DNA of 46,951 bases from an uncultured Methanobrevibacter sp. Lineage in GTDB: Archaea > Methanobacteriota > Methanobacteria > Methanobacteriales > Methanobacteriaceae. Numbering within the stretch: the stretch's first letter is position 1; every line of letters begins with the position of its first letter. The notes below the pieces were generated by a model. That model was not told where the DNA came from. It saw nothing but the letters and a program-made list of their open reading frames with translations, and did no database searches. Below, one piece after another: positions 155 to 12,793 of the stretch. The translations under genes were made by a program, and so were the position numbers. Location: NCBI RefSeq assembly GCF_902788255.1, contig NZ_CADAJR010000017.1, positions 1 through 46,951 on the forward strand. Reading direction: 5' to 3'.

Positions 155-2155
155 TTATTTAATTTTAGTAAATGTTCTATTTGCTTTGAAAGCTTCGAAT
201 TTTCCTTTACTTTCCATGAAGAATTGAGAGAAGAACTCTACATAGTTAAGACGTAAAGCGTTAATAAATGCACCTAATACTTGGAAAGCGAAGTTTGCTA
301 TATGACCACCGACAAATACGATGATTGCAACAACAATACCCACTACAGGAACCATATTATTTAACATTTGAGCTAAGATGTTTACTGTCATAGCAATACC
401 ACCGGTAGCTAAACATAATGCTAAAAGACGTGCATATGATAATACATCACCCATGTAACCGAAAATATCCATTACACCGTATGCACCGTTAGCCCATACT
501 AACATTCCAATAGTTGCAACTATTAATATTCCTCCTAAAATCATTCCAATCATACCTATTGCAGGCATCATGAAACCTAATGCTAAGAGGATAATACCAG
601 CTTCAAATACAAACCAACAAATTTGAGAACCGATAGCCTCTTTGACGTTTCCGTATCTCAAGTTGTTGATAGCACCTAAAATAAATCCGATGTTGGTGTA
701 AACAAGACCAATTAAGATAGCTATTATCAAAATAGTATCCGGATGTACAAATGCTTCAACAGCAGGAATAACTGTTGGTAAACGGAAACCAGCTATTCTT
801 TCCGGGAAGTCCCCAATGAAACCGTTGGTAATCAGACCCAGTATAACGGCCCACAGACCGGACCAGATTAAAATCCAACCAAATGAATGCATGGATTCTT
901 TAACTTTACCCATACCTTTAAGGAGGACTACACCAATGAGTGCTACAACTAAACCATAAACTGCATCGGTTAAACAGAAACCGAAGAATAATGGGAATGT
1001 GATTGCAACAAAGATTGTTGGGTCCATTGAATTGTAACGTACTGGAGAGTACATATCAACAAGGTATTCGAAAGGTTTTGCATACCATCCATTTTGTTGT
1101 AGGACTGGAACATTCTCATCATCTGTACCTTCAACCTCTATTGTTTCAAAGGCACAATGTCCATCAGAACTTTTTTCAACAAGTTGTTCAACCTTTTCAG
1201 TATCCTTTACAGGTACCCATGCTTCAAGAACGTAAGCATCTTTGGTTTGAACAAATGAAGAAAGAATTTCGTTCTTTTCTTTTTCATTTTCTAATTGTTC
1301 TTTGAGAGCTAATATGTCATCGTCCCATTGTTCTGCAACTGCCCTTAATTCTGTTTTAACAGAGGCACGTTCTGATTCAATGGTCAATAATCTTGCATCA
1401 GCGTTTGAAATAATTTGTTGAGGTGTTCCGTCAACATTACCCACTTCAATTTTCTCAAAGTCAAATTTACGAAGTGTTGAATAAACTTCATCACTATATT
1501 CTTTTAATGTTACTACAACGACAATAGAATAATCATTATCATCGGCAGGAACAGTAAAAATATCTAATTCATCTGTCAAGTTACTTAATTCATTTTTGAT
1601 TTCTGAAGCAGATCCAGCATTAATCCTTCCAACAGTAGTAGAAGTGTACTTTGAATCTTTTAAGTCAGCTAAATTCATGTCAAAATTAGATAAGCGATTA
1701 GCCAAACTTTTATTAGACTGTAGTTCACTTGTTTCAGCGTCGAGTGCGGAAAGTTTTCCTTCTATAACACTTGTTTTAGCTTCCACCTGGGATAGAGTGT
1801 CTTCAGCTTTTTCAATGAAAGCTTCAGTATCTAATTTTTCTACTTCTTTTTGAACAGGTACATCCGGACTAATAAAAGACATAGCTAAGTCTTTTAACCC
1901 ATGGCCTTCTGATAAAGAATTTCCTAAAAGTTCAGATATACCGTTTGTTTTCATAAGAAGAGAAGATATCTTACCAGTGTATGGAGTGGCTTTAGCAGGA
2001 GTAACTAATTCCGCTAATTCAGGATCTTGCTGAATGCTGTCAGAAATATCACTGATTTGTATAAGCCCTGATTCGTGGAGAGCATCCACTGTAGGAGCTA
2101 CATACTTATCAAGTGTAACAATTCTAATTTTACGCATTCTAGCTGTCTTGAACAT
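155..2155 (-). CDS. atpI: A-type ATP synthase subunit I (a-subunit-like stator)
   Basis: A 666-residue protein of normal length for archaeal subunit I. The N-terminal half (about 1-370) is cytosolic, with a long coiled-coil-rich stretch (about 100-150 and 255-300). The C-terminal half (about 370-650) has seven or eight hydrophobic segments and ends near HIANFAFQVLGAFINALRLN, the conserved region that faces the rotor ring and channels ions. It begins MFKTARMRKIRIVTLDKYV, as in other archaeal I subunits. It follows subunit H by 11 nt and precedes subunit K, so one transcript is likely. Known role: stator and ion path of the membrane sector. No defect is visible. Confidence 0.95.
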   Translation of the reverse strand: MFKTARMRKIRIVTLDKYVAPTVDALHESGLIQISDISDSIQQDPELAELVTPAKATPYTGKISSLLMKTNGISELLGNSLSEGHGLKDLAMSFISPDVPVQKEVEKLDTEAFIEKAEDTLSQVEAKTSVIEGKLSALDAETSELQSNKSLANRLSNFDMNLADLKDSKYTSTTVGRINAGSASEIKNELSNLTDELDIFTVPADDNDYSIVVVVTLKEYSDEVYSTLRKFDFEKIEVGNVDGTPQQIISNADARLLTIESERASVKTELRAVAEQWDDDILALKEQLENEKEKNEILSSFVQTKDAYVLEAWVPVKDTEKVEQLVEKSSDGHCAFETIEVEGTDDENVPVLQQNGWYAKPFEYLVDMYSPVRYNSMDPTIFVAITFPLFFGFCLTDAVYGLVVALIGVVLLKGMGKVKESMHSFGWILIWSGLWAVILGLITNGFIGDFPERIAGFRLPTVIPAVEAFVHPDTILIIAILIGLVYTNIGFILGAINNLRYGNVKEAIGSQICWFVFEAGIILLALGFMMPAIGMIGMILGGILIVATIGMLVWANGAYGVMDIFGYMGDVLSYARLLALCLATGGIAMTVNILAQMLNNMVPVVGIVVAIIVFVGGHIANFAFQVLGAFINALRLNYVEFFSQFFMESKGKFEAFKANRTFTKIK

Positions 2156-2166
2156 ATAATCTCACA

Positions 2167-2481
2167 CTACAAAATATTTTTGACAATAATTGAAGCCGCA
2201 TCGTCAACATTTGCCATAGCTTTGTCCTTTATGGATTTAACTTCCACTTTGGATTGCTCAGCAATTGTTTGTGCTTCTTTTTTAGCTTTATCTTCTGCAT
2301 CAAAAACAGTATCTTTTGCATCGTCTTCTGCTTGCAATTTAGCTTGGGAAATAATTTCCTCAGCTTTTACTTGTGATTCAGCAATCAAATCTTTTGATTG
2401 TGCTTCTGAATCGACAATAAGTTGTTCAGCATCGGATTCAGCTTTTTTTATCATTGCGATTGCGTCTGATATCTCTGCCAT
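2167..2481 (-). CDS. atpH: A-type ATP synthase subunit H (peripheral stalk)
   Basis: A 104-residue, Ala/Glu/Lys-rich, almost wholly helical protein (for example AESDAEQLIVDSEAQSKDL), matching archaeal subunit H. This subunit pairs with subunit E in a right-handed coiled coil forming the peripheral stalk. The ATG at 2479-2481 follows GGTGAT with a 5-nt spacer. It is the first gene of the minus-strand operon H-I-K; a TATA-like stretch lies about 40 nt upstream. Length and composition fit the family, and there is no competing start. Confidence 0.9.
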   Translation of the reverse strand: MAEISDAIAMIKKAESDAEQLIVDSEAQSKDLIAESQVKAEEIISQAKLQAEDDAKDTVFDAEDKAKKEAQTIAEQSKVEVKSIKDKAMANVDDAASIIVKNIL

Positions 2482-3059: not shown

Positions 3060-3395
3060 ATGGAAAGAGCGGTTTGGATAATATTAAACAAAAATTTTTC
3101 ATTGACTTTGGATGCTGAAATAGTTGACGGAAAAGTGACTGATAAAAAATTTTCTCCCGGAAATGATATCTGGACCAATGAGCTTCCGCGTCTCGGTTTC
3201 AGCAGTGAAAGCATTCAAAATGACTATGAGGAGTTTACATCAGACATACTGACATTGTTTTCAGAACATGGCGCTGATGAAGTATTCATAAATGCCAAAA
3301 TCGGTGAGGAATCAGAATATGTCAATGCAAAAAATCCATTGATTATAAGAAAAATAGAAGAATATAGTGTTGATGAAATCATACAAGACGGGTAG
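3060..3395 (+). CDS. Conserved hypothetical protein, 111 aa
   Basis: No family recognised. Acidic, soluble, with mixed alpha/beta character (MERAVWIILNKNFSLTLDAEI at the start, a Glu-rich middle, IIRKIEEYSVDEI near the end). No signal peptide or membrane segment. The ATG has no Shine-Dalgarno sequence but has a TATA box at the leaderless distance. Its last 17 nt overlap the 3' end of the convergent gene at 3379-3717, which is common in compact archaeal genomes. Function unknown. Confidence 0.6.
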   Translation: MERAVWIILNKNFSLTLDAEIVDGKVTDKKFSPGNDIWTNELPRLGFSSESIQNDYEEFTSDILTLFSEHGADEVFINAKIGEESEYVNAKNPLIIRKIEEYSVDEIIQDG

Positions 3396-3717
3396 CCTGC
3401 TTTAGGATTTCATCCATATTGCTGAATTCCAACGGCTCACCGTCATCGCCCACCTTCTCGGTAGTGATTAAGACATTTGGTGACGCCCACAGGAAGGAAT
3501 AAGCAAAATACACTACATTAATGAAAATTACAGGTCCTATAAAAGACAGGGCTATGATTAGACATACCACATGTATCAGTGGATTGCCGTATCTTTTCTT
3601 TTTCATCAGGATGTAATTGTCCTGCTTTTCAATGACCTTAAATTTGTTTTGAGACAAATCCTTGGAAAGTTTATCCATTTGGGAGGAATTGTCTGCACTC
3701 AATATAAATAAACTCAT
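3379..3717 (-). CDS. Hypothetical membrane protein, 112 aa
   Basis: No family recognised. Residues 1-40 look like a small soluble domain (MSLFILSADNSSQMDKLSKD), followed by two adjacent hydrophobic helices at about 46-77 and a short acidic C-terminal tail. The start lies 1 nt after the stop of the nitroreductase gene, so it may be the last gene of that operon. Its 3' end overlaps the convergent gene 3060-3395. Confidence 0.55.
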   Translation of the reverse strand: MSLFILSADNSSQMDKLSKDLSQNKFKVIEKQDNYILMKKKRYGNPLIHVVCLIIALSFIGPVIFINVVYFAYSFLWASPNVLITTEKVGDDGEPLEFSNMDEILKQATRLV

Positions 3718-3718
3718 T

Positions 3719-4228
3719 CTAATCTTTATATACTACAAATTCATCCAGTTCTTTTCTTGGAGTGTCTCTAGGCTCGGCGTTTCCATATCCTAATGGAGTG
3801 AATAGTACAGCTTCCTCGTTTTCTTTTAGGCCTAAGAATTCATGAGCCTTATATTTTTTAAATGCGCCGATGTAACAGGTTCCAAGACCCACATCAGCTG
3901 CGGCAAGTATCATATGATCCATTACAATAGTTGCATCAATGTCTGCAATATTCTTTTGGTCCCAAGGTCTTGTCCATGCCTCATTTTTAACTCCCACTAC
4001 ACACAATACCAAAGGAGCTTCAACAAACCATTTTGCAGCATATATTTCGGAAAGTTCATCCTTATATTTTTTGGTATCAATAACATAGACTTTAAATGGC
4101 TGTGCATTTACACCGGTTGGTGCTATTGTTGCTGCTTTTAGTACATATTCCAGTTTTTCTGGTTCTACTTCCTTATCCAAGTATCCTCTTACACTGTATC
4201 TTTCTGTTATTACGTCAATAAATTCCAT
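3719..4228 (-). CDS. Nitroreductase family protein (FMN-dependent)
   Basis: A 169-residue protein of normal single-domain nitroreductase length. It opens MEFIDVITERYSVRGYLDKEV, the family's phosphate-binding Arg-Ser-x-Arg region for FMN, has PTGVNAQPFKVYV (residues about 37-49) and a C-terminal LGYGNAEP segment that lines the flavin pocket. Known members are dimeric flavin NAD(P)H oxidoreductases acting on quinones, nitro compounds or enoyl groups; the substrate here cannot be read. It starts 4 nt after the citryl-CoA lyase-like gene ends, with a GATGAT site, so it is probably co-transcribed with the tricarboxylate cluster. Confidence 0.85.
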   Translation of the reverse strand: MEFIDVITERYSVRGYLDKEVEPEKLEYVLKAATIAPTGVNAQPFKVYVIDTKKYKDELSEIYAAKWFVEAPLVLCVVGVKNEAWTRPWDQKNIADIDATIVMDHMILAAADVGLGTCYIGAFKKYKAHEFLGLKENEEAVLFTPLGYGNAEPRDTPRKELDEFVVYKD

Positions 4229-4232
4229 ATTA

Positions 4233-5027
4233 TCATCCCATATATTCTATATCGTCAAGGTCACAAAACCTTCTGAATTCATCTTCATCCATTTTTTCCT
4301 CGTAACTGTGTGCAATTAATCCTGGAAGTCTTCCAATCATGAAAATGCCCAAACCCAATTCAGGTGAAAATCCTAAATCTGACAATATTGCCGCATTTGC
4401 ACCATCAACATTCAATTTGATATGCTTTTTAGTGTATACCAAATCCTGCAGTGCCAAAGCCAGCTTAATGTGAGGTCCGATATAACCCTTATCAACAGCA
4501 ATTTCCATCAATTTTTCAGCCCTAGGGTCAACGTCATGATACCTATGGCCAAAACCGGGTATCTTTTTATCCTTAACTATATAATCATTGTAAATATCAA
4601 TGGCAAGACTTGCAATCTGCTTGTTGTCAATGGTCGGATCATCAATCAGATGAACAGAGCTGATTCGTGATTGGTATAGTTCCATAGCCTTTTCAATGGC
4701 TCCCGCATGCTTATTTCCAAATGACAATAAAGCACCCCCAATAGCAGAGTTCATCGGTGAGCCTGAAGAGGTTATCAGTCTTGCGGTTTGAGTGCTTGGC
4801 GGAGTAACGCCATGATCACAAAATGACACCAAAACATGATTGAAAATTTTGCTTTCCTTAAGTGAAGGAAGTCTTCCTTTCAAAAGCAGGAAAACCATAT
4901 CCCCAAATCTGATTTTCTCAATCAAATCTTTTTGATTGTATCCGCGAGTTACGATTTTATCCTTTTCAACACGGGAAACCGCAGTCCTTAAAGATTTGGG
5001 ATTGACTCTAAAATTATTCTCTTGCAT
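4233..5027 (-). CDS. Citryl-CoA lyase-like protein (citrate synthase superfamily)
   Basis: 264 residues, much shorter than true citrate synthase (about 370-430) but equal to stand-alone citryl-CoA lyase and the matching domain at the end of ATP-citrate lyase. Visible landmarks are DHGVTPPS (71-78), GNKHAGA (104-110, His107), GFGHRYHDVDPRA (158-170, His161) and LNVDGA (205-210, Asp208), the catalytic His/His/Asp set in lyase-type spacing. Known chemistry: cleavage or formation of a citryl-type CoA thioester to oxaloacetate plus acetyl-CoA. The substrate may be citryl-CoA or a homologue. It lies 56 nt after the hydratase gene. Calling it citrate synthase is possible but less likely. Confidence 0.8.
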   Translation of the reverse strand: MQENNFRVNPKSLRTAVSRVEKDKIVTRGYNQKDLIEKIRFGDMVFLLLKGRLPSLKESKIFNHVLVSFCDHGVTPPSTQTARLITSSGSPMNSAIGGALLSFGNKHAGAIEKAMELYQSRISSVHLIDDPTIDNKQIASLAIDIYNDYIVKDKKIPGFGHRYHDVDPRAEKLMEIAVDKGYIGPHIKLALALQDLVYTKKHIKLNVDGANAAILSDLGFSPELGLGIFMIGRLPGLIAHSYEEKMDEDEFRRFCDLDDIEYMG

Positions 5028-5083
5028 TTTTCTAAACCTTTATTTTGATTAATTAATAATTTAAATTAAGCATATATAAACCT

Positions 5084-5956
5084 TTACAATTTTAATGTTG
5101 CTACACGAGGTTCTACAAAACATGACGGCCTGATTGAGACTATTCTAACACCACTCGCCCTTTGATTTCCTATATTCAAATAGCATCCAAGAACTGTAGT
5201 CTTTCCACCTAAACCCATTGGACCAATTCCGGTACGGTTTAGTCTTTCAGTAATCTGATTCTCATAGTCATTCTGTTTATCCAAACTGCCATATGCAATG
5301 GATTTGATTAAAAGTGATGTAGCTTCAAAATGTGTCCTTCCAATTCCGATTGAGGGAATTGACGGAGTGCATCCCAACATTTTTAGGGAGGATTCCAGCC
5401 ATTCACATGCGGTGCCGATTACATTTTCAAAGGAACGTTTATGGTAAACCCTGTATGTTTTCGCCCTGATTTCAGGACCTCCCCCTTCAAGCAAAAAATG
5501 AATGTTCAATGTATCGGGTTCAATATCCCTTTTATATGTTGACTCGTCATTAGTGCTGTCAATTAGGATAGATGCCGGTGCGAGCTTTCCAGGCTCATCA
5601 TATAACCCTTCACTCTGTTCAATACGTTCCACAGAATTGCCTTTAACCGCCATGGGCCTTGCCGGAAGATTATTTAAGCCTGAAGAAATTCCTTCATGAA
5701 TCTGATTTAATAGCTCTCCAGATATCTGCCTGTCCTCACCAATCTCAATTATCACATGAGGAATTCCGGTATCGTCACACAATGGAAACTTGGTTTTCTG
5801 GGCAACCTCATAATTTTCCAAAATCTGTGATAATGCCCAACGGGCATTGTCGTTTTCTTCCATATCTATTGCCCTTTTTAAAGCATCAGATTTATCATCT
5901 GAAAGTGTGGTTGAGGCTTTTATTATGGTGTCTGAAATGTCTTTTACAAGATCCAT
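5084..5956 (-). CDS. Class I fumarase alpha-subunit-like hydratase (Fe-S)
   Basis: 290 residues from the ATG at 5954-5956, which follows GTGAT with a 3-nt spacer; starts further upstream would run into the preceding gene. It matches the alpha (N-terminal) part of class I fumarases and tartrate dehydratases: LCDDTG (Cys60), GCTPSIPSIGIG (Cys196) and GPMGLGGKTTVLGCYLN (Cys258), giving the three cysteines that hold the 4Fe-4S cluster. Two-subunit members need a beta chain; none is encoded nearby. With MmgE/PrpD and a citryl-CoA lyase beside it, the likely substrate is a citrate-like acid rather than fumarate itself. Gap to the upstream gene is 4 nt. Confidence 0.8.
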   Translation of the reverse strand: MDLVKDISDTIIKASTTLSDDKSDALKRAIDMEENDNARWALSQILENYEVAQKTKFPLCDDTGIPHVIIEIGEDRQISGELLNQIHEGISSGLNNLPARPMAVKGNSVERIEQSEGLYDEPGKLAPASILIDSTNDESTYKRDIEPDTLNIHFLLEGGGPEIRAKTYRVYHKRSFENVIGTACEWLESSLKMLGCTPSIPSIGIGRTHFEATSLLIKSIAYGSLDKQNDYENQITERLNRTGIGPMGLGGKTTVLGCYLNIGNQRASGVRIVSIRPSCFVEPRVATLKL

Positions 5957-5960
5957 AAAA

Positions 5961-6863
5961 TCACTCAGGAACTGCCAAATCAGCGGATTTGTCTGGTGAA
6001 GCAACAGCATCCGGACAATACTCATCAATCATTCTTTTAACAAGTCTCACTTGTTTTATACGAGCGATGGCTTCTTTTTCTGTAGTGTCCCAATTATGGT
6101 TGGCTGCAACAGAGCCTCCGGTCTTTAAATAAACAGGTGAGGCAACTTTAATGAAGTTTGGCACTTCATAATGCCTAATAAATCCCCCTGTTGATTTGGG
6201 ATTTTCAGTGTGCAAATCCAAAGCCATATCTGTTGCATTTCTAATAGATGCAATCATCGGAATCTGCAGGTCACGAACAGGATTTAGAGAATTGAGCCCA
6301 TTTTCTTCAAGCAGTTTTGCAGATGCGGCATTTGAATGTCCCGCATGTGCAGACAGTTTGAAATGGACACTCTCAGGAATTTCACCATCCCTTCGCATCT
6401 GATTCAATACCCACAAAAGACCTTCATCGTAAAGCAGAATTCCGCGAACACCTAACCTGCATGCCCTTTTAACATCCTCTATCGCATAAACAAGATTATC
6501 ATAACCCCTTAATCGATAGCCGATTCTGCTGCCTTCCTTTGTATGAACTGTGGCAGAGGTATCATATGTCGCCCTCGGACCAACTGACAGGAACAGTTCA
6601 CATCCGTAATCTTTAGCCAGAGAAACCATTTCTTCAATCTCCTCATCAGCAAGCATCATTATTCCCTTGGTTTGAGTCACACGATGAATGAAAATATTGC
6701 TTTTTAAAGCTTCATCAAGAAGTGCTTTCATTGTTTTGGGTGACTGAATTCCCGGAACCTCAAAACGGAACTGTCCACCATCACCAAATCGTTTGGATGA
6801 AACATATTCATTTGAAACTTCATCAATACCTATCTTTTTAAGGAATTTTTTAGTTTTATCCAT
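5961..6863 (-). CDS. Peptidase U32-like TIM-barrel protein in the tricarboxylate cluster
   Basis: 300 residues, soluble, no signal peptide. Segments such as FLSVGPRATYDTSA, RACRLGVRGILLYDEGLLW and KLSAHAGHSNAASAKLLEENG alternate strand and helix like a TIM barrel and resemble the barrel of U32 'peptidase' proteins, most of which are now linked to small-molecule or RNA modification rather than proteolysis. I am not certain of the family. It is packed 5 nt after MmgE/PrpD and 4 nt before the fumarase-like gene, so it should act in the same pathway. The ATG follows AGGTAGATAAA. An isomerase or lyase role is an inference only. Confidence 0.55.
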   Translation of the reverse strand: MDKTKKFLKKIGIDEVSNEYVSSKRFGDGGQFRFEVPGIQSPKTMKALLDEALKSNIFIHRVTQTKGIMMLADEEIEEMVSLAKDYGCELFLSVGPRATYDTSATVHTKEGSRIGYRLRGYDNLVYAIEDVKRACRLGVRGILLYDEGLLWVLNQMRRDGEIPESVHFKLSAHAGHSNAASAKLLEENGLNSLNPVRDLQIPMIASIRNATDMALDLHTENPKSTGGFIRHYEVPNFIKVASPVYLKTGGSVAANHNWDTTEKEAIARIKQVRLVKRMIDEYCPDAVASPDKSADLAVPE

Positions 6864-6868
6864 TTTAT

Positions 6869-8278
6869 CTACCTGTTCAGTTTGCGAACAACATATTTCA
6901 TTGTATATTCTTCTAATGAATCGATAACAGTCAAATTTTTAATGTCATACTGAGGATTTAAAGCCTTGAACTTGTCAATCAGCTCCCTTAACTGGAATGG
7001 ATTTTCAAAGTCTCCCTTTGGAAGGAAAGTGATGTTTTGAAATACTCCATTTCTAAAACTGTCATCCAGTTTGATAATGACATTGGACGGTCTTTTTTCC
7101 GGATACAGTTCATTTAACTTATCATCAACAACTATAATCATGTTATTTACAAGATTCTTGATGCTGTTAACCGTATCCACTGTCGAATAGTTTTCCAAAA
7201 GGCCGAACTCAATCAACTGATTTATATCATCAACGCTGACTTCTCCCACAACCAATGAAATGGCAACGGCATACGGAAGGCTTTGCCTTAACTCCTCTAT
7301 ATTTTTTGGATTGAAATTGTTATGTTCTGCAGCAACGGAATATGTCTTGATTGCCAAATTCTGTATATGATCATATTCATCCCCAATACTTGCCTTAAGC
7401 TTGAGTGCGGTGTCGATTGAAGAGTGCAGGTGTCTGCAGAAAGGATATTTTTTAAAGTAGATGTCTCTCACCCTTACCTTTCCAATGTCTTTAAGTGCGT
7501 CTTCAAGTGAGAAATCATCAAATTTGTAATCTTCATCATCAACAACCATGGTTTTTAAAAATCCTTCATTACCTTCAAATATTGTACTTGATCCTGTAAA
7601 ACCATTTCTTGCAAGGTAAGCAGACAATATTCCATTATAAACTGCCTTTCCAACATGCAATGATTTTCCCATGGATCCTCCATGGTCGGATTCCAACAGT
7701 CCTGCAGCCTGAGTTCCGCATAAACCCAATGCATTTAAAATCTGTTTTTCATCCAATTTCAATAATTTGGATGCCACAACCCCCGCTACAAATGTTCCAA
7801 CTGTTCCAGTAGTATGAAACCCTCTGTTTCTGTGTTCGGGATTGACAATTTGTCCTAAAAGAATTCCAACTTCATAACCAGTCATTACACCTTCAATAAA
7901 TTCCCTACCGGACAAGTCATAGGCTTCTGAGATAGCAAGTGCGGTTGAAAAAATAACAGAACCCAAATGGAGTTGGGCTTTCCTGTGGCCGTCATCAAGT
8001 TCCAGCACATGTGCAGATATCCCATTGATGAGGCCCGCATGCAAAACGTCTGCCTTAAAATTGGTTCCTATTACAGATGATTTTAAATTTGAATCTGAGT
8101 TTCCATGAAATATTTCCCCAACAGTATTACAAGCTATACTTGGAGCATCTTCCCTTACTCCTCTGTAGGTAACTCCAAAATAATCTAGAAATGCAGCTTT
8201 TACTGTAGTTATAGATTCTACAGTTGCCTGTTCATAGCGATAGTTTGAAATAAATTTAGAAATATTTTGTAAAAACAT
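6869..8278 (-). CDS. MmgE/PrpD family protein (2-methylcitrate dehydratase-like)
   Basis: 469 residues, full length for the family. Hallmarks include GFHTTGTVGTF (about 153-163), a Gly/Ala-rich stretch LGLCGTQAAGLLESDHGGSM, HVGKAVYNG, and KKYPFCRHLHSSIDTA (about 276-291), the counterpart of the KPYPCCRYTH segment. Known members dehydrate 2-methylcitrate (PrpD), make itaconate from cis-aconitate (CAD) or isomerise related tricarboxylates, without metals. It is the first soluble enzyme gene of the minus-strand cluster, 81 nt downstream of the transporter-like pair. Its exact substrate is not readable. No sign of decay. Confidence 0.88.
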   Translation of the reverse strand: MFLQNISKFISNYRYEQATVESITTVKAAFLDYFGVTYRGVREDAPSIACNTVGEIFHGNSDSNLKSSVIGTNFKADVLHAGLINGISAHVLELDDGHRKAQLHLGSVIFSTALAISEAYDLSGREFIEGVMTGYEVGILLGQIVNPEHRNRGFHTTGTVGTFVAGVVASKLLKLDEKQILNALGLCGTQAAGLLESDHGGSMGKSLHVGKAVYNGILSAYLARNGFTGSSTIFEGNEGFLKTMVVDDEDYKFDDFSLEDALKDIGKVRVRDIYFKKYPFCRHLHSSIDTALKLKASIGDEYDHIQNLAIKTYSVAAEHNNFNPKNIEELRQSLPYAVAISLVVGEVSVDDINQLIEFGLLENYSTVDTVNSIKNLVNNMIIVVDDKLNELYPEKRPSNVIIKLDDSFRNGVFQNITFLPKGDFENPFQLRELIDKFKALNPQYDIKNLTVIDSLEEYTMKYVVRKLNR

Positions 8279-8359
8279 AAAACATCAAAGTAATATTTGT
8301 AATAGGTAGTATTAAAATAGTTCAGTTACTAATCAGAACAAATTTTTGAAGTAGCACTA

Positions 8360-8851
8360 TTATGCTGCTGGAACACCGCTTAAAACAAGGATGATATGTG
8401 CCACAATAGCCGCACCATAATAAGTTGCTGCAATAACTAGAACGGTTATTAAAATTGCTTTCCAACCTAATGCCTTGAATTCATTCCAGCTTTTACCCAT
8501 CCCAATACCAACATAGGCCAAAAATACTGTAACTATTGCCAAAAGCTCAATCTGTGAGACATAATGAAGAACGAATTTTGAAGTGGGCATGCCCGGAAAG
8601 GCCAGAATAATACCGATTATACTTATATACAAAATTGATGACACGTTAAAAGGAAGGTATCTTTCAAGCCACACCCCTGCAAGTGTGATTACTGATAATA
8701 TCCCCATTCCGATTAGGGAACCTTCAATAGGATGTTTATAACCTAAAAAATTACCAATGACAGTGATAATTGAAAATAGAATCAGCAGGACTATCCAATT
8801 TATAATACCATGAACTGATACATTTTCAGACCCATCAATCAGATCAGTCAT
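8360..8851 (-). CDS. Small partner membrane protein of the DUF3100 pair, copy 1
   Basis: 163 residues with about five hydrophobic helices and a short N-terminal MTDLIDGSENVSVHGIINW. It contains a GIGMGKSWNEFKALGWKA segment near residue 116 that reads like a cytosolic loop between transmembrane helices. Its ATG overlaps the TAA stop of the upstream DUF3100 gene by 1 nt (TAATG) with GGAGG just before, so the two are translationally coupled. The second pair at 9892-11264 has the same layout and a close paralogue. The pair probably makes one transporter of the small-anion/carboxylate type; that is inferred from the adjoining enzymes. Confidence 0.75.
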   Translation of the reverse strand: MTDLIDGSENVSVHGIINWIVLLILFSIITVIGNFLGYKHPIEGSLIGMGILSVITLAGVWLERYLPFNVSSILYISIIGIILAFPGMPTSKFVLHYVSQIELLAIVTVFLAYVGIGMGKSWNEFKALGWKAILITVLVIAATYYGAAIVAHIILVLSGVPAA

Positions 8852-9735
8852 TATTTATCCTCCTCATCAGGTGTGATGGAATCCCTTCCTATTTTTGGCT
8901 CAAGCCAACGATACATTTTTTCGGTTAATGGAATTGCAATAAATATTACAATGTAAATTCCTACACAAAATGACAGGAGATTGCTGAACCCTGCAAACGC
9001 CTCAATTTGAGTTTCCAATCCTGGAAATGCCGCCAGAGTCGGACCGATTGCAGCTGCATTCATACTTGCGCTACCCACACCACTTGCCATCGCAAATGCA
9101 TATGGATGCAAAGGAAGGAACGACAGTGAAAATGTCACTAAAAAGCTTATGAAAATTGTTCCGATAACAGTCCCTATAATGAATATTGCAAATACTCCTC
9201 TTGATTCAGGAGAGTTGAATCCATATTTGTCCACAACAACCGCAACATTCGGTTCCCTACCAATTGAATTGGTCATACCTATTGCCTCTTCCTTAAATCC
9301 TAAAAGCAATGCAATCGGAAGAACCAATATTGTAGCCAAGTGACCTACCTCCTGCAATATCAAAGCAGACCCCATTTGAAAAATTAAACCTATTGACTGT
9401 CCGCTTGAAACAGCCAGCTTTGCAATCAAGACGCCAATGAAAAGCATCATTGACCCTTCAGCAATACGTGCCTGTTTTCTTTGAATCCATTTGATAGGTT
9501 TTGCAAGGTAAAAGATAAGACCTAAAATAATCGTATATATCAAAGGCATTATTGTAATTGCAACATCTTTAGTGATTGGAATTTCTATAGTTCCGATTAG
9601 CTCGGCAATAATAACTAAAATAAGCACAGTACCATGTAGGCGATAATCCCTCCATGGATTTTTCTTAAGGATACGTTTATCAGTTTTTTCCCTATAAATA
9701 TGTTCTACCTGCCCATCTTTACCCCTATTAGGAAT
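8851..9735 (-). CDS. DUF3100 membrane protein, copy 1, apparent ATT start
   Basis: A polytopic membrane protein with about eight hydrophobic helices, matching DUF3100 (signature GMTNSIGREPNVAVVVDKYG and HPYAFAMASGVGSASMNAA). The first GTG in frame is at 9627, but the frame stays open for 36 more codons up to a TAG at 9748-9750, encoding a basic cytosolic N-terminus (TDKRILKKNPWRDY) almost identical in copy 2. No ATG, GTG or TTG occurs there. An ATT at 9733-9735 follows GGGGTGG with a 6-nt spacer; starting there gives 294 residues, exactly the length of copy 2. Likely a carboxylate transporter component for the downstream enzymes. Confidence 0.75.
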   Translation of the reverse strand: MPNRGKDGQVEHIYREKTDKRILKKNPWRDYRLHGTVLILVIIAELIGTIEIPITKDVAITIMPLIYTIILGLIFYLAKPIKWIQRKQARIAEGSMMLFIGVLIAKLAVSSGQSIGLIFQMGSALILQEVGHLATILVLPIALLLGFKEEAIGMTNSIGREPNVAVVVDKYGFNSPESRGVFAIFIIGTVIGTIFISFLVTFSLSFLPLHPYAFAMASGVGSASMNAAAIGPTLAAFPGLETQIEAFAGFSNLLSFCVGIYIVIFIAIPLTEKMYRWLEPKIGRDSITPDEEDK

Positions 9736-9741
9736 TCTAAT

Positions 9742-9748
9742 CCACCCC
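9742..9748 (-). promoter_or_regulatory. Shine-Dalgarno site placing the ATT start of DUF3100 copy 1
   Basis: Reads GGGGTGG on the minus strand, with 6 nt (ATTAGA) to the proposed ATT initiation codon at 9735-9733. No other start codon is in frame between here and GTG 9627, which is 115 nt away from this site. Confidence 0.55.
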
Positions 9749-9891
9749 TAAAAATTGAGATATATCAAAATTTGTAATATCTATTATACTTTAATTCAAG
9801 CATATTATATAAATTAATAGCATCGAAACAAAAAAAGTACACTAAATAAGAAAAAAGAAAAATGGTGAATTTCACTAAAAAGGAAAAGAAG

Positions 9892-10380
9892 TTATGCCGG
9901 AACACCACTTAGAACCAGAATAACATGAGCTACAACAGCAGATCCAAGATAGGTTGAAGCGATAACTAAAACTGTAACAATTATAGCACGCAAACCAAGC
10001 GCCTTAAATTCATTCCAGCTTTTACCCATCCCAATACCTACATATGCCAGAAATACGGTAACAATAGATAAAAGTTCAATTTTTGAAACATAATATGAAA
10101 CAAGTTCTGCTGTAGGCATTCCAGGAAATGCTAAAATAATTCCCATTACACTTATGTAAATAATGGAAGAGATGTTCAACGGAAGTTCCCTTTCCATCCA
10201 TACACCTAAAAGAGTTATCAGGGAAAGAATGCCCATACCAATCAATGAATCCTGAATAGGATGTTTGTAACCTACATAATTACCAATCACAGTAATTACT
10301 GAAAATATTGCTAAAAGTAAAATCCAATTTAAGATTCCCTGAACTGAAACATTTTCAGTACCATCAATTAAATCAGGCAT
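9892..10380 (-). CDS. Small partner membrane protein of the DUF3100 pair, copy 2
   Basis: 162 residues and a close paralogue of 8360-8851; it starts MPDLIDGTENVSVQGILNW and has the same GIGMGKSWNEFKALGLRA loop. About five hydrophobic helices. The ATG overlaps the stop of the DUF3100 gene by 1 nt with GGAGGATGAATA in front, again implying coupled translation. Retention of both copies suggests either gene dosage or different substrate preferences. Confidence 0.75.
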   Translation of the reverse strand: MPDLIDGTENVSVQGILNWILLLAIFSVITVIGNYVGYKHPIQDSLIGMGILSLITLLGVWMERELPLNISSIIYISVMGIILAFPGMPTAELVSYYVSKIELLSIVTVFLAYVGIGMGKSWNEFKALGLRAIIVTVLVIASTYLGSAVVAHVILVLSGVPA

Positions 10381-11264
10381 TATTCATCCTCCGGAACAAT
10401 AGCTTTTCTGCCAATTTTTGGCTCTAAAAATGCATATAATTTCTCAGTCAATGGAATTGCAATAAATATTACAATATAGATTCCAATTGAAAATGACAGG
10501 AGATTACTGAATCCTGCAAATGCCTCAATTTGAGTTTCCAATCCCGGAAATGCCGCCAGAGTCGGACCCAGTGATGCTGCATTCATACTTGCACTTCCCA
10601 CACCAGAAGCCATAGCAAATGCATATGGATGCAACGGCAAAATAGATACACATATACTTGTCAAGAAACTTATGAAAACAGTACCAATAATTGTTCCCAC
10701 AATAAACAATGCAAAAATTCCCCTTGATTCAGGTGAATTAAATCCATATTTATCTACAACAACTGCAACTTCAGGTTCCCTCCCTATGGAGTTGGTCATA
10801 CCAATTGTTTCCCGTTTAAATCCTAAAAGTAAAGCAACAGGAAGTGCAATGAAAATAGTTGCCAAATGCCCAAGTTCCTGGAACAGTAATGCAGGACCCA
10901 TTTCAAAGAGAAGATGCATTGATTGTCCACTGGAAACAGCCAGTTTTGCAATCAAAATACCTATAAAAAGCATCATTGCCCCTTCAGCAACACGGGACTG
11001 TTTTCTTTCAATCCATTTGATTGGTTTTGCCAAATAGAATACCAAACCTAAAACCATTGTATATAGCAGAGGCATTATTGAAACTTCAACACCTTTTGTA
11101 AGAGGTATTTTAATCGGACCTATCAACTCTGCAATTATCACTAAAACAAGTACAGTTATATGCAAACCATAATCTCGCCAAGGATTTTTCTTTAAAATAC
11201 GTTTATCAGTTTTTTGACGATATAAATGTTGAATTTCATTCGTTGAAGAATCTTGATCAGGAAT
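10380..11264 (-). CDS. DUF3100 membrane protein, copy 2, apparent ATT start
   Basis: A paralogue of 8851-9735 with the same GMTNSIGREPEVAVVVDKYG and MASGVGSASMNAA segments and about eight membrane helices. The first in-frame TTG (11165) lies just before the first membrane helix and would remove the conserved basic segment TDKRILKKNPWRDY. The frame is open upstream to a TGA. The only plausible start is ATT at 11262-11264, 5 nt after GGGGGAG; an ATG at 11276-11278 is in another frame and closes after 28 codons. The ATT start gives 294 residues, as in copy 1. This is the promoter-proximal gene of the whole tricarboxylate region. Confidence 0.75.
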   Translation of the reverse strand: MPDQDSSTNEIQHLYRQKTDKRILKKNPWRDYGLHITVLVLVIIAELIGPIKIPLTKGVEVSIMPLLYTMVLGLVFYLAKPIKWIERKQSRVAEGAMMLFIGILIAKLAVSSGQSMHLLFEMGPALLFQELGHLATIFIALPVALLLGFKRETIGMTNSIGREPEVAVVVDKYGFNSPESRGIFALFIVGTIIGTVFISFLTSICVSILPLHPYAFAMASGVGSASMNAASLGPTLAAFPGLETQIEAFAGFSNLLSFSIGIYIVIFIAIPLTEKLYAFLEPKIGRKAIVPEDE

Positions 11265-11470: not shown

Positions 11471-12733
11471 TCAACCTAAATTCATTCTGCAAATAGGTTT
11501 TGACAAATGACGCCTTGCAGAAACTGGTGTTTCATAAAATTGAGCATTATCCAAATTACGATGAATTTTAATAGGAACTTTTTCATTTGACTCAATTCTA
11601 TTTCCACATTTTCTGCATTTGAAACCCTTGTTCTTTCCTGCGGAAGTCATTCTTTTTCCGCACTCGCACACAGGATTTTCATATTCAACATCGTTCAGTT
11701 CAATTACCTGAAATTTTTCAATGTTGAATGTATTCTGCTCACCTATTCCCCCATAAACCTTGATTATATCTCCAGGGTGCAAATAGGATACAGTTTTTCT
11801 GAAATTTTTTGTAGGTTCATAAGCACCACATTCAATCTCTCCGGACTCATCAGCAATGTAAAAGAACATGTGTCCACCATCAATGATTGTGGGCTTGTTT
11901 TTTACTTTTCCGGTTACCTCATAACACCCGAACTGTTTCATATCGGAAATTTTAGATGCCTTTTGAATATGCATATCTGTATGCTGGTTTGTCTTGAAAA
12001 TGCACCAGTCAACAATAGGTTCTGAAACTTTAACTATATCTTTGGCCAATTTCAGTGCCTCGACATTGTTTGATCTGATTCCATATAAGACAGGACACGG
12101 TGTTTTGGGTTCAATTGCAATGTAATCTTCAGAATAGTCAATATTTTCAAAAGTGTCCGGAAATGTCTGCCTGTCCATCTCATAAACAGATTCATGATCG
12201 ATTTGTCTTTTGGTACCATAATTTTCAGACGCCCGGTAGGCCAGAAGTTCAAAAGTATAATCACTAAGAGGAAGACCGATTGCTGCAATAGAGCCGATTA
12301 TTCCTCTTCCCTTTTTAAACTTGTGAATTTCACATCCAATGGATTTTCCAAACTTTTCAGCCTCATCAATTGTAATGAATTCATATATTGCTCTGAATGC
12401 ATAATCCTGCATTTTCTTTGTAATTTCCCCATCATAAAAGATGACCCCAGGATTTGTATTGTCACAATCAAACATTGACAGCTTTTCGACTTTTTTAAGA
12501 ACGATTTCCTTTGCCAAATTAGCCTTTGAATCATTCAATATCTTTAAAGCCACACCCCCATTTCCACGGGTTTTAAAACGGGCAAACGGATTTAATCTAA
12601 TCAATCGAGGATAGTCAACCAAATCTATTCCATTGTCTTTAAATTCGTTGATGATTTGGCTTGCAAGAAATGTTGTGCACATACCATCCGGAGAATCCGT
12701 ATCATCAATTCCAATATATAAATACTTAATCAA
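11471..12733 (-). CDS. tiaS: tRNA(Ile2) 2-agmatinylcytidine synthetase
   Basis: About 420 residues, full length for TiaS, the archaeal enzyme that uses ATP and agmatine to modify the wobble cytidine of the AUA-decoding tRNA(Ile). Landmarks: YLYIGIDDTDSPDGMCTTF at the start, RLNPFARFKTRGNGGVALK, GRGIIGSIAAIGLPL, an OB-fold region (about 270-340) and a C-terminal zinc ribbon with CECGKRMTSAGKNKGFKCRKCG. The start is uncertain: GTG at 12739 lies inside the AGGTGAT ribosome-binding site, TTG at 12733 is 1 nt from it, and ATT at 12730 is 4 nt from it. I give the TTG conservatively. Confidence 0.93.
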   Translation of the reverse strand: MIKYLYIGIDDTDSPDGMCTTFLASQIINEFKDNGIDLVDYPRLIRLNPFARFKTRGNGGVALKILNDSKANLAKEIVLKKVEKLSMFDCDNTNPGVIFYDGEITKKMQDYAFRAIYEFITIDEAEKFGKSIGCEIHKFKKGRGIIGSIAAIGLPLSDYTFELLAYRASENYGTKRQIDHESVYEMDRQTFPDTFENIDYSEDYIAIEPKTPCPVLYGIRSNNVEALKLAKDIVKVSEPIVDWCIFKTNQHTDMHIQKASKISDMKQFGCYEVTGKVKNKPTIIDGGHMFFYIADESGEIECGAYEPTKNFRKTVSYLHPGDIIKVYGGIGEQNTFNIEKFQVIELNDVEYENPVCECGKRMTSAGKNKGFKCRKCGNRIESNEKVPIKIHRNLDNAQFYETPVSARRHLSKPICRMNLG

Positions 12734-12793
12734 AATCACCTACTAAAATATATTTAAAGTTAAAATCATATATAGTTTAACAGAGGTATTTAG

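Follow-up and report, generated by a model that had tools for sequence, protein, structure and literature searches.

An ancient, probably acid-building pathway of Methanobacteriales and its possible link to the methanofuran arm

Results and Discussion

The window examined here is an entire 46,951-bp contig (NZ_CADAJR010000017.1) of a 2.2-Mb Methanobrevibacter-type genome. Four adjacent genes of this window form, together with a fifth gene located elsewhere in the genome, an order-wide, ancient and undescribed, most likely acid-building pathway of the Methanobacteriales. The four genes encode an MmgE/PrpD protein, a TIM-barrel protein with a U32-like fold, a divergent class I fumarase alpha subunit (FumA') and a citryl-CoA-lyase-type protein (CCL), while the unlinked gene encodes a fumarase beta subunit (FumB'). 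It is plausible, though somewhat short of probable, that these five enzymes constitute a Methanobacteriales biosynthetic pathway for a branched polycarboxylic acid, most likely 1,3,4,6-hexanetetracarboxylic acid (HTCA), which forms the terminal arm of methanofuran. This coenzyme is the first to carry carbon when CO2 is reduced to methane, and its HTCA arm has been known chemically for decades in Methanobacteriales, an order that includes the main methane makers of the gut and rumen. If the proposal is true, then five named genes make the origin of this arm testable, C-C chemistry would gain a new enzyme fold, and the set would point to a pathway that these methanogens alone possess. As a system the set is not of a new kind; it is a new form of citrate-type chemistry.

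A four-gene core conserved across the order

The genes of the cluster were called from open reading frames combined with Pfam and NCBIfam scans. All of the genes named in the first-pass annotation, which had described a tricarboxylate-handling cluster at 3719-11264, were recovered, every one on the minus strand, and the 1-nt overlaps and the gaps of 4, 5, 56 and 81 nt that it listed are correct. The computed intergenic distances are 1, 4, 56, 4, 5, 81, -1, 264 and -1 nt; the 264-nt gap, which lies between two gene pairs encoding DUF3100 proteins and their partners, was missing from that list. The annotated stretch ends about 100 bp past the last open reading frame. The core genes and FumB' are as follows.

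6869..8278, minus strand: core gene 1, MmgE/PrpD protein, 469 aa (PF03972, 1.1e-66; PF19305, 1.3e-24)
5961..6863, minus strand: core gene 2, U32-fold TIM-barrel protein, 300 aa (PF01136, E=7e-4, below cut-off; structure model)
5084..5956, minus strand: core gene 3, FumA', divergent class I fumarase alpha subunit (PF05681, 5.9e-54)
4233..5027, minus strand: core gene 4, CCL, 264 aa (NF004866, 411 bits against a cut-off of 245)
G000:C29:11378-11866: FumB', unlinked class I fumarase beta subunit, with which the Fe-S hydro-lyase alpha/beta pair is complete

The start of FumA' is placed at the ATG at 5956; the TTG at 6028 that was called by the tool would overlap the barrel gene.

The cluster is a four-gene core and not a unit of nine genes. 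Among 20 relatives whose loci were read around the barrel gene, members of the genus, Methanothermobacter, a third family and Methanothermus all keep the order MmgE/PrpD-barrel-FumA'-CCL, with one contig ending before CCL. A wider scan of 80 loci recovered the core in the same arrangement at most of them, usually with a TiaS-like gene and the operon of the A1Ao ATPase close by, and with the block broken up in a few lineages. In Methanobrevibacter filiformis and Candidatus Methanovirga, for example, the barrel gene stands alone at its locus and the genes for CCL and MmgE are on other contigs. Because the four-gene order is kept across the main lineages of the order, the grouping is not due to chance. 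The first-pass annotation would have been refuted if these genes were not neighbours in other genomes; neighbourhood reading instead places them together across the order.

The core was found in all but one of 20 genus-level groups of Methanobacteriota, and M. thermautotrophicus dH (G047), M. smithii PS (G033) and M. ruminantium M1 (G079) are among its carriers. By gene, the barrel is present in 129 of the 152 genomes of the phylum, MmgE in 128 and CCL in 123. The three are jointly absent from Methanosphaera (g26; 0 of 20 genomes), and misses outside this genus are mostly incomplete assemblies.

Some relatives have additional sequence between core genes, and we considered whether these gaps hold further pathway genes. 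This idea was rejected, as the inserted genes resemble those for a transposase, for ATPases and surface proteins and for a DNA glycosylase, and no recurring metabolic gene was found in the gaps. At three Methanobrevibacter loci (L024:11830-13086, L082:5539-6763 and L087:2962-4329), transposase-like or ATPase-like inserts lie between FumA' and CCL, and the core genes are intact.

An unlinked beta subunit for FumA'

A class I fumarase such as FumA' requires a beta subunit, for which the cluster holds no gene. The genome has two beta-subunit genes, one canonical and the other encoding FumB', which is 46% identical to the FumB of a bacterial operon that also carries the barrel and 38% identical to its canonical paralogue. 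From these comparisons, FumB' is predicted to be the beta partner of FumA' and an orthologue of the FumB proteins of bacterial barrel operons. FumA' shows the same affinities, with 45-51% identity to FumA' of bacterial operons and Methanothermus and 26-31% to canonical FumA (set beside the FumB' values, 46% to the bacterial-operon protein and 30% to the canonical one). It retains three cysteines at positions where canonical FumA also has cysteines, and it scores 123 bits on the fumarase alpha equivalog NF004885, for which the cut-off is 276. Thus, FumA' and FumB' resemble class I fumarase and L(+)-tartrate dehydratase (FumA-FumB, TtdAB) in having both Pfam domains and the aligned cysteines, but they differ in forming a separate subfamily, 25-38% identical to canonical subunits, that is shared with bacterial barrel operons. 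A role for FumA' as the fumarase of the tricarboxylic acid (TCA) cycle was rejected because the same genome encodes a canonical pair elsewhere (FumA on C12 and FumB on C11).

FumB' is present in about 122 of the 152 genomes. The 20 Methanosphaera genomes have only the distant canonical paralogue in its place (E about 1e-12 to 1e-17), with none in one incomplete genome. This pattern of presence and absence is the same as that of the cluster, which supports the existence of one pathway. In M. thermautotrophicus dH (L164:9506-9998), FumB' matches fall in two frames, which may reflect either a sequencing error or a real frameshift; the gene is in one piece in the relatives at L167 and L176.

Predicted functions of the remaining core proteins

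The MmgE/PrpD protein matches both Pfam domains of its superfamily above cut-off (225 and 87 bits versus 32.1) and fails the 2-methylcitrate dehydratase PrpD equivalog TIGR02330 (35.2 bits versus 458). Across PrpD equivalogs its scores are 35-40 bits, with cut-offs of 458-950. We predict that it is a dehydratase or isomerase of a branched polycarboxylate. CCL matches the citryl-CoA lyase subfamily model NF004866 above cut-off, corresponds to the C-terminal half of citrate synthase only, and in alignments keeps the His/His/Asp motifs KHAGA, GFGHRYHxxDPR and NVDG. Cleavage or formation of citryl-CoA is a putative activity.

Methanothermobacter, the third family and one Methanobacteriaceae genus have a second citryl-CoA-lyase-type copy near phosphate-type transport genes (L185:8022-8960, L186:7181-7993 and L187:7065-7859), and in strain dH the two copies hardly differ in the stretch compared. 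As a clue to the pathway the second copy proved uninformative.

The barrel falls below the gathering threshold of the U32 family PF01136 (19.4 bits versus 22.4). Its structure model (predicted local distance difference test score, pLDDT, 87.3; predicted template modelling score, pTM, 0.87) replaced an earlier model built from 12 sequences that was too weak (pLDDT 70, generic TIM-barrel matches). The top PDB match of the model in Foldseek is the U32 protein Mk0906 (5d88, E 1.8e-7, TM 0.42-0.50), in keeping with the U32-like barrel of the first-pass annotation. Class II aldolases, DHDPS and PrpB follow; the PrpB structures rank behind U32 and class II aldolases, and the protein has no Pfam match to the isocitrate lyase/phosphoenolpyruvate (PEP) mutase family. 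A profile search of PDB sequences gave chance matches only. The protein thus has a U32-like fold by its model, but its Pfam score does not place it in the U32 family. The fold, the best PDB match and the weak Pfam match link it to U32 peptidases, from which it differs in its sub-threshold score and in keeping company with small-acid metabolism rather than with proteolysis or RNA modification. Residues invariant over nine diverse members (arginines 61, 133, 140, 157, 208 and 230, lysines 169 and 247, and E35, D146, D216 and E233) are as expected for an enzyme that would bind several carboxylates, and the barrel is predicted to be a C-C lyase or ligase acting on a 2-oxo polycarboxylate.

Bacterial operons that carry the barrel

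Gut Firmicutes have close barrels, with 56-66% identity to the archaeal or bacterial query, in three types of operon. The first type encodes MmgE, an aldo/keto reductase, a phosphonopyruvate-decarboxylase-type enzyme, the barrel, a PF15617 C-C bond lyase, FumB' and FumA'. The second encodes a CitD-like protein, CitE, CitF, the barrel, FumA', an iron-type alcohol dehydrogenase and MmgE. The third encodes the barrel, canonical-type FumA/FumB, a malic-enzyme-type protein and MmgE, followed at one locus by tripartite-tricarboxylate-transporter-type genes and a relative of 4-carboxy-4-hydroxy-2-oxoadipate aldolase. The barrel therefore goes with MmgE/PrpD and class I fumarase in close sets, and in methanogens and in operon types 1 and 2 it is joined by a citrate-type lyase from one of three unrelated families. 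A likeness to citrate lyase (CitDEF) operons is seen in G460 (L156), where the CitD-like protein, CitE and CitF adjoin the barrel, FumA' and MmgE and thus take the place that CCL has in methanogens. The methanogen set differs in its unrelated CCL fold and, probably, in running in the reverse direction.

One Ruminococcaceae barrel operon (L110:4263-12445) lies amid exopolysaccharide-looking genes, next to an ATP-grasp gene; a phosphonopyruvate-decarboxylase-type enzyme is encoded in this stretch, and no PEP mutase was seen there.

In Thermomicrobium and Streptomyces, more distant barrels (29-40% identity) have enolase-superfamily dehydratases, lactonase-type enzymes and sugar transporters as neighbours, those in Streptomyces being what we take them to be from their translations. 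On the Thermomicrobium roseum megaplasmid (L140) and a Streptomyces nigrescens plasmid (L141) the sugar transporters are of the ATP-binding cassette type, and IclR regulators are also present. An aldolase would complete the pathways at these loci. The gene company suggests that the distant barrels may be an unrecognised aldolase family for 2-keto-3-deoxy acids. On an Enterobacter chuandaensis plasmid (L143:10901-22505), a barrel relative occurs with an oxidoreductase, an aminotransferase, two iron-containing redox enzymes, an M14 peptidase, a nucleotidyltransferase and a major facilitator superfamily exporter, and this operon, biosynthetic in appearance, is possibly an uncharacterised natural-product cluster.

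Linkage to mfnA and a proposed route to HTCA

The gene for FumB' is directly downstream of mfnA, on the same strand, at 9 of 9 loci examined outside the Methanobrevibacter genus-level group g1, with a 4-bp overlap at two of these. Three of the mfnA products were scored and gave 552-572 bits on TIGR03812 (tyrosine decarboxylase MfnA; cut-off 299). The g1 gene has a different neighbour: there, FumB' faces the 2-oxoglutarate synthase operon korDABC-sucC. An association with kor was rejected as the general arrangement, since it is confined to g1 and the gene is beside mfnA elsewhere.

In Methanothermobacter, HTCA occurs both as part of methanofuran and as a major free solute (PMC1224877), and methanofurans carry five different side chains (PMC11365854). 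In 2011, MTH1116 was listed as MfnA and about seven further methanofuran proteins were unknown (Kaster et al., PMC3087415). Our literature search found no description of genes for HTCA synthesis, no joint match for methanofuran and hexanetetracarboxylic acid, and nothing on MTH962-965 or MTH1115. The core is present in M. thermautotrophicus dH and M. smithii, organisms known to make HTCA methanofuran.

The conservation of the core in hydrogenotrophic autotrophs argues that the acid is made rather than eaten, and synthesis is the most likely direction. For the product, the order of steps, the barrel reaction and the reductase, we infer the following route. A 2-oxo acid, probably 2-oxoglutarate, would be condensed with acetyl-CoA by CCL to give a citryl-type (homocitrate-like) product, which FumA'B' would dehydrate to a substituted fumarate. 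The barrel would then make a second C-C bond with a pyruvate-type unit (C5+C2+C3=C10), MmgE/PrpD would remove water from a hydroxylated intermediate either before or after the barrel step, and a reductase would saturate the final product. 2-Oxoglutarate, acetyl-CoA and pyruvate together supply ten carbons, which would account for the HTCA skeleton. HTCA labels from 2-oxoglutarate and acetate units, and M. smithii methanofuran carries hydroxylated HTCA, which fits a 2-oxo intermediate. If this route is right, it shares its 2-oxoglutarate and acetyl-CoA start and its hydro-lyase steps with the homocitrate/homoaconitate branch of coenzyme B synthesis (AksA, AksDE, AksF). That branch differs in relying on DRE-TIM synthases and on enzymes of the aconitase type, both of which the core set lacks, and coenzyme B is general to methanogens, unlike the core. 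A stronger version of the proposal is rather unlikely to hold in all its parts: that the five genes are the missing HTCA pathway, that the barrel is a new type of C-C bond-forming enzyme joining a pyruvate-type unit to carboxyethyl-fumarate, and that its bacterial relatives, in gut Clostridia and sugar-acid operons, are the corresponding lyases.

Several points weigh against the HTCA proposal. The neighbourhoods of FumB' are inherited arrangements and so count as one or two events, not nine. MfnA, we presume, may also act as an aspartate decarboxylase in CoA synthesis, in which case the linkage does not single out methanofuran. Neither a CoA-activating enzyme nor an order-wide reductase was found alongside the core. 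Among the bacteria with the barrel set, the locus with tricarboxylate transporter and malic enzyme genes represents catabolism. Finally, Methanosphaera cannot make methane from CO2, being without molybdopterin for formylmethanofuran dehydrogenase (PMC13135261), yet it keeps MfnB, a methanofuran ring enzyme. The core was thus not lost together with the methanofuran core genes, and the notion that Methanosphaera lost methanofuran altogether had to be rejected, which weakens a simple form of the HTCA proposal. With MfnB kept, the proposal needs Methanosphaera to have a methanofuran without HTCA.

Alternative explanations

An unlikely alternative is a carbon shunt that resembles the methylcitrate cycle or runs through citramalate and mesaconate. 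CCL would condense or cleave an acyl-CoA and a 2-oxo acid, MmgE/PrpD would dehydrate, FumA'B' would rehydrate to an isomer, and the barrel would cleave as PrpB does, thereby interconverting small central acids. The four activities mirror PrpC, PrpD, the hydratase and PrpB of the 2-methylcitrate cycle, which likewise combines a citrate-synthase-fold condensation, MmgE/PrpD dehydration, an Fe-S hydratase and a TIM-barrel C-C enzyme. Moreover, PrpB is among the Foldseek matches of the barrel, and the bacterial versions have CitDEF or PF15617 lyases and in one case end in a malic enzyme. The enzymes themselves nevertheless differ from those of the cycle: CCL is half-length, the hydratase is a class I fumarase paralogue rather than an aconitase, the barrel appears to be U32-like rather than of the PEP mutase/isocitrate lyase family, and the MmgE protein scores far under the PrpD cut-offs. 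A shunt also has no obvious use that Methanosphaera alone could dispense with and that Methanothermobacter would need, and it leaves the position of FumB' beside mfnA unexplained.

In another, quite unlikely, reading the product is some other polycarboxylate, or a metabolite linked to CoA or beta-alanine, that the pathway synthesises or alters, such as another solute or an envelope decoration, with the mfnA linkage reflecting aspartate decarboxylation or chance. The presumed second role of MfnA and the retention of MfnB in Methanosphaera would fit such a product, as would the exopolysaccharide-looking surroundings of the Ruminococcaceae operon, with its phosphonopyruvate-decarboxylase-type enzyme and aldo/keto reductase. 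On the other hand, kor and sucC beside FumB' in g1 fit 2-oxoglutarate chemistry, and we know of no Methanobacteriales-wide compound besides HTCA that fits as well.

The first-pass annotation proposed that DUF3100 and its partner take up an external tri- or dicarboxylate that is broken down to oxaloacetate/acetyl-CoA products, which we regard as very improbable: DUF3100 does adjoin the core in Methanobrevibacter, and genes for a TctABC tricarboxylate transporter are present at one bacterial barrel locus, but thermophilic hydrogenotrophs and others conserve the core without DUF3100, the bacterial neighbours of DUF3100 are different genes, and import genes vary where the enzymes do not. What survives of that annotation is an undescribed pathway for citrate-like acids that stands apart from the TCA cycle, with canonical FumA and FumB encoded elsewhere; import and breakdown are unlikely.

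Accessory genes and flanks

The remaining features of the locus are as follows.

3719..4228, minus strand: accessory nitroreductase-family flavoprotein, 169 aa (PF00881, 3e-27)
3379..3717, minus strand: hypothetical membrane-type protein, 112 aa, which travels with the nitroreductase (open reading frame; relatives' loci)
8851..9627, minus strand: accessory DUF3100 membrane protein, copy 1 (PF11299, 1.2e-83)
8360..8851, minus strand: membrane partner of DUF3100 copy 1, 163 aa, 1-nt overlap (no Pfam match)
10380..11165, minus strand: accessory DUF3100 membrane protein, copy 2, a tandem duplicate (PF11299, 3.8e-86)
9892..10380, minus strand: membrane partner of DUF3100 copy 2, 162 aa (sub-threshold Pfam match only, MerC 0.021)
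11471..12739, minus strand: TiaS-like gene, conserved upstream flank outside the pathway, upstream of the core in most relatives; from its translation we take it to be of the tRNA-Ile2 agmatinylcytidine synthetase type
155..2481, minus strand: conserved downstream flank outside the pathway (open reading frames; relatives' loci), from its translations presumably ahaI and ahaH of the A1Ao ATPase

Among the methanogen loci, only Methanobrevibacter-type lineages have DUF3100, its partner and the nitroreductase. These genes are lineage-specific additions, which makes import a weak idea. DUF3100 does not accompany the core in Methanothermobacter, in Methanothermus, in several Methanobacteriaceae or even in one close relative (G020/L025), and it was rejected as the heart of the system for this reason. 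The nitroreductase, a possible ene-reductase by family, adjoins the core in Methanobrevibacter-type loci and is not beside it in Methanothermobacter, Methanothermus and others.

No paper on DUF3100 was found in our literature search. Outside these lineages, DUF3100 and its small partner adjoin M20 amidohydrolases, aldehyde dehydrogenases or aminotransferases. The two genes form a conserved module in Fusobacterium, Nitratireductor and Haladaptatus (L182, L183 and L184), near M20 amidohydrolases in the first two, and the encoded pair looks like a two-part transporter.

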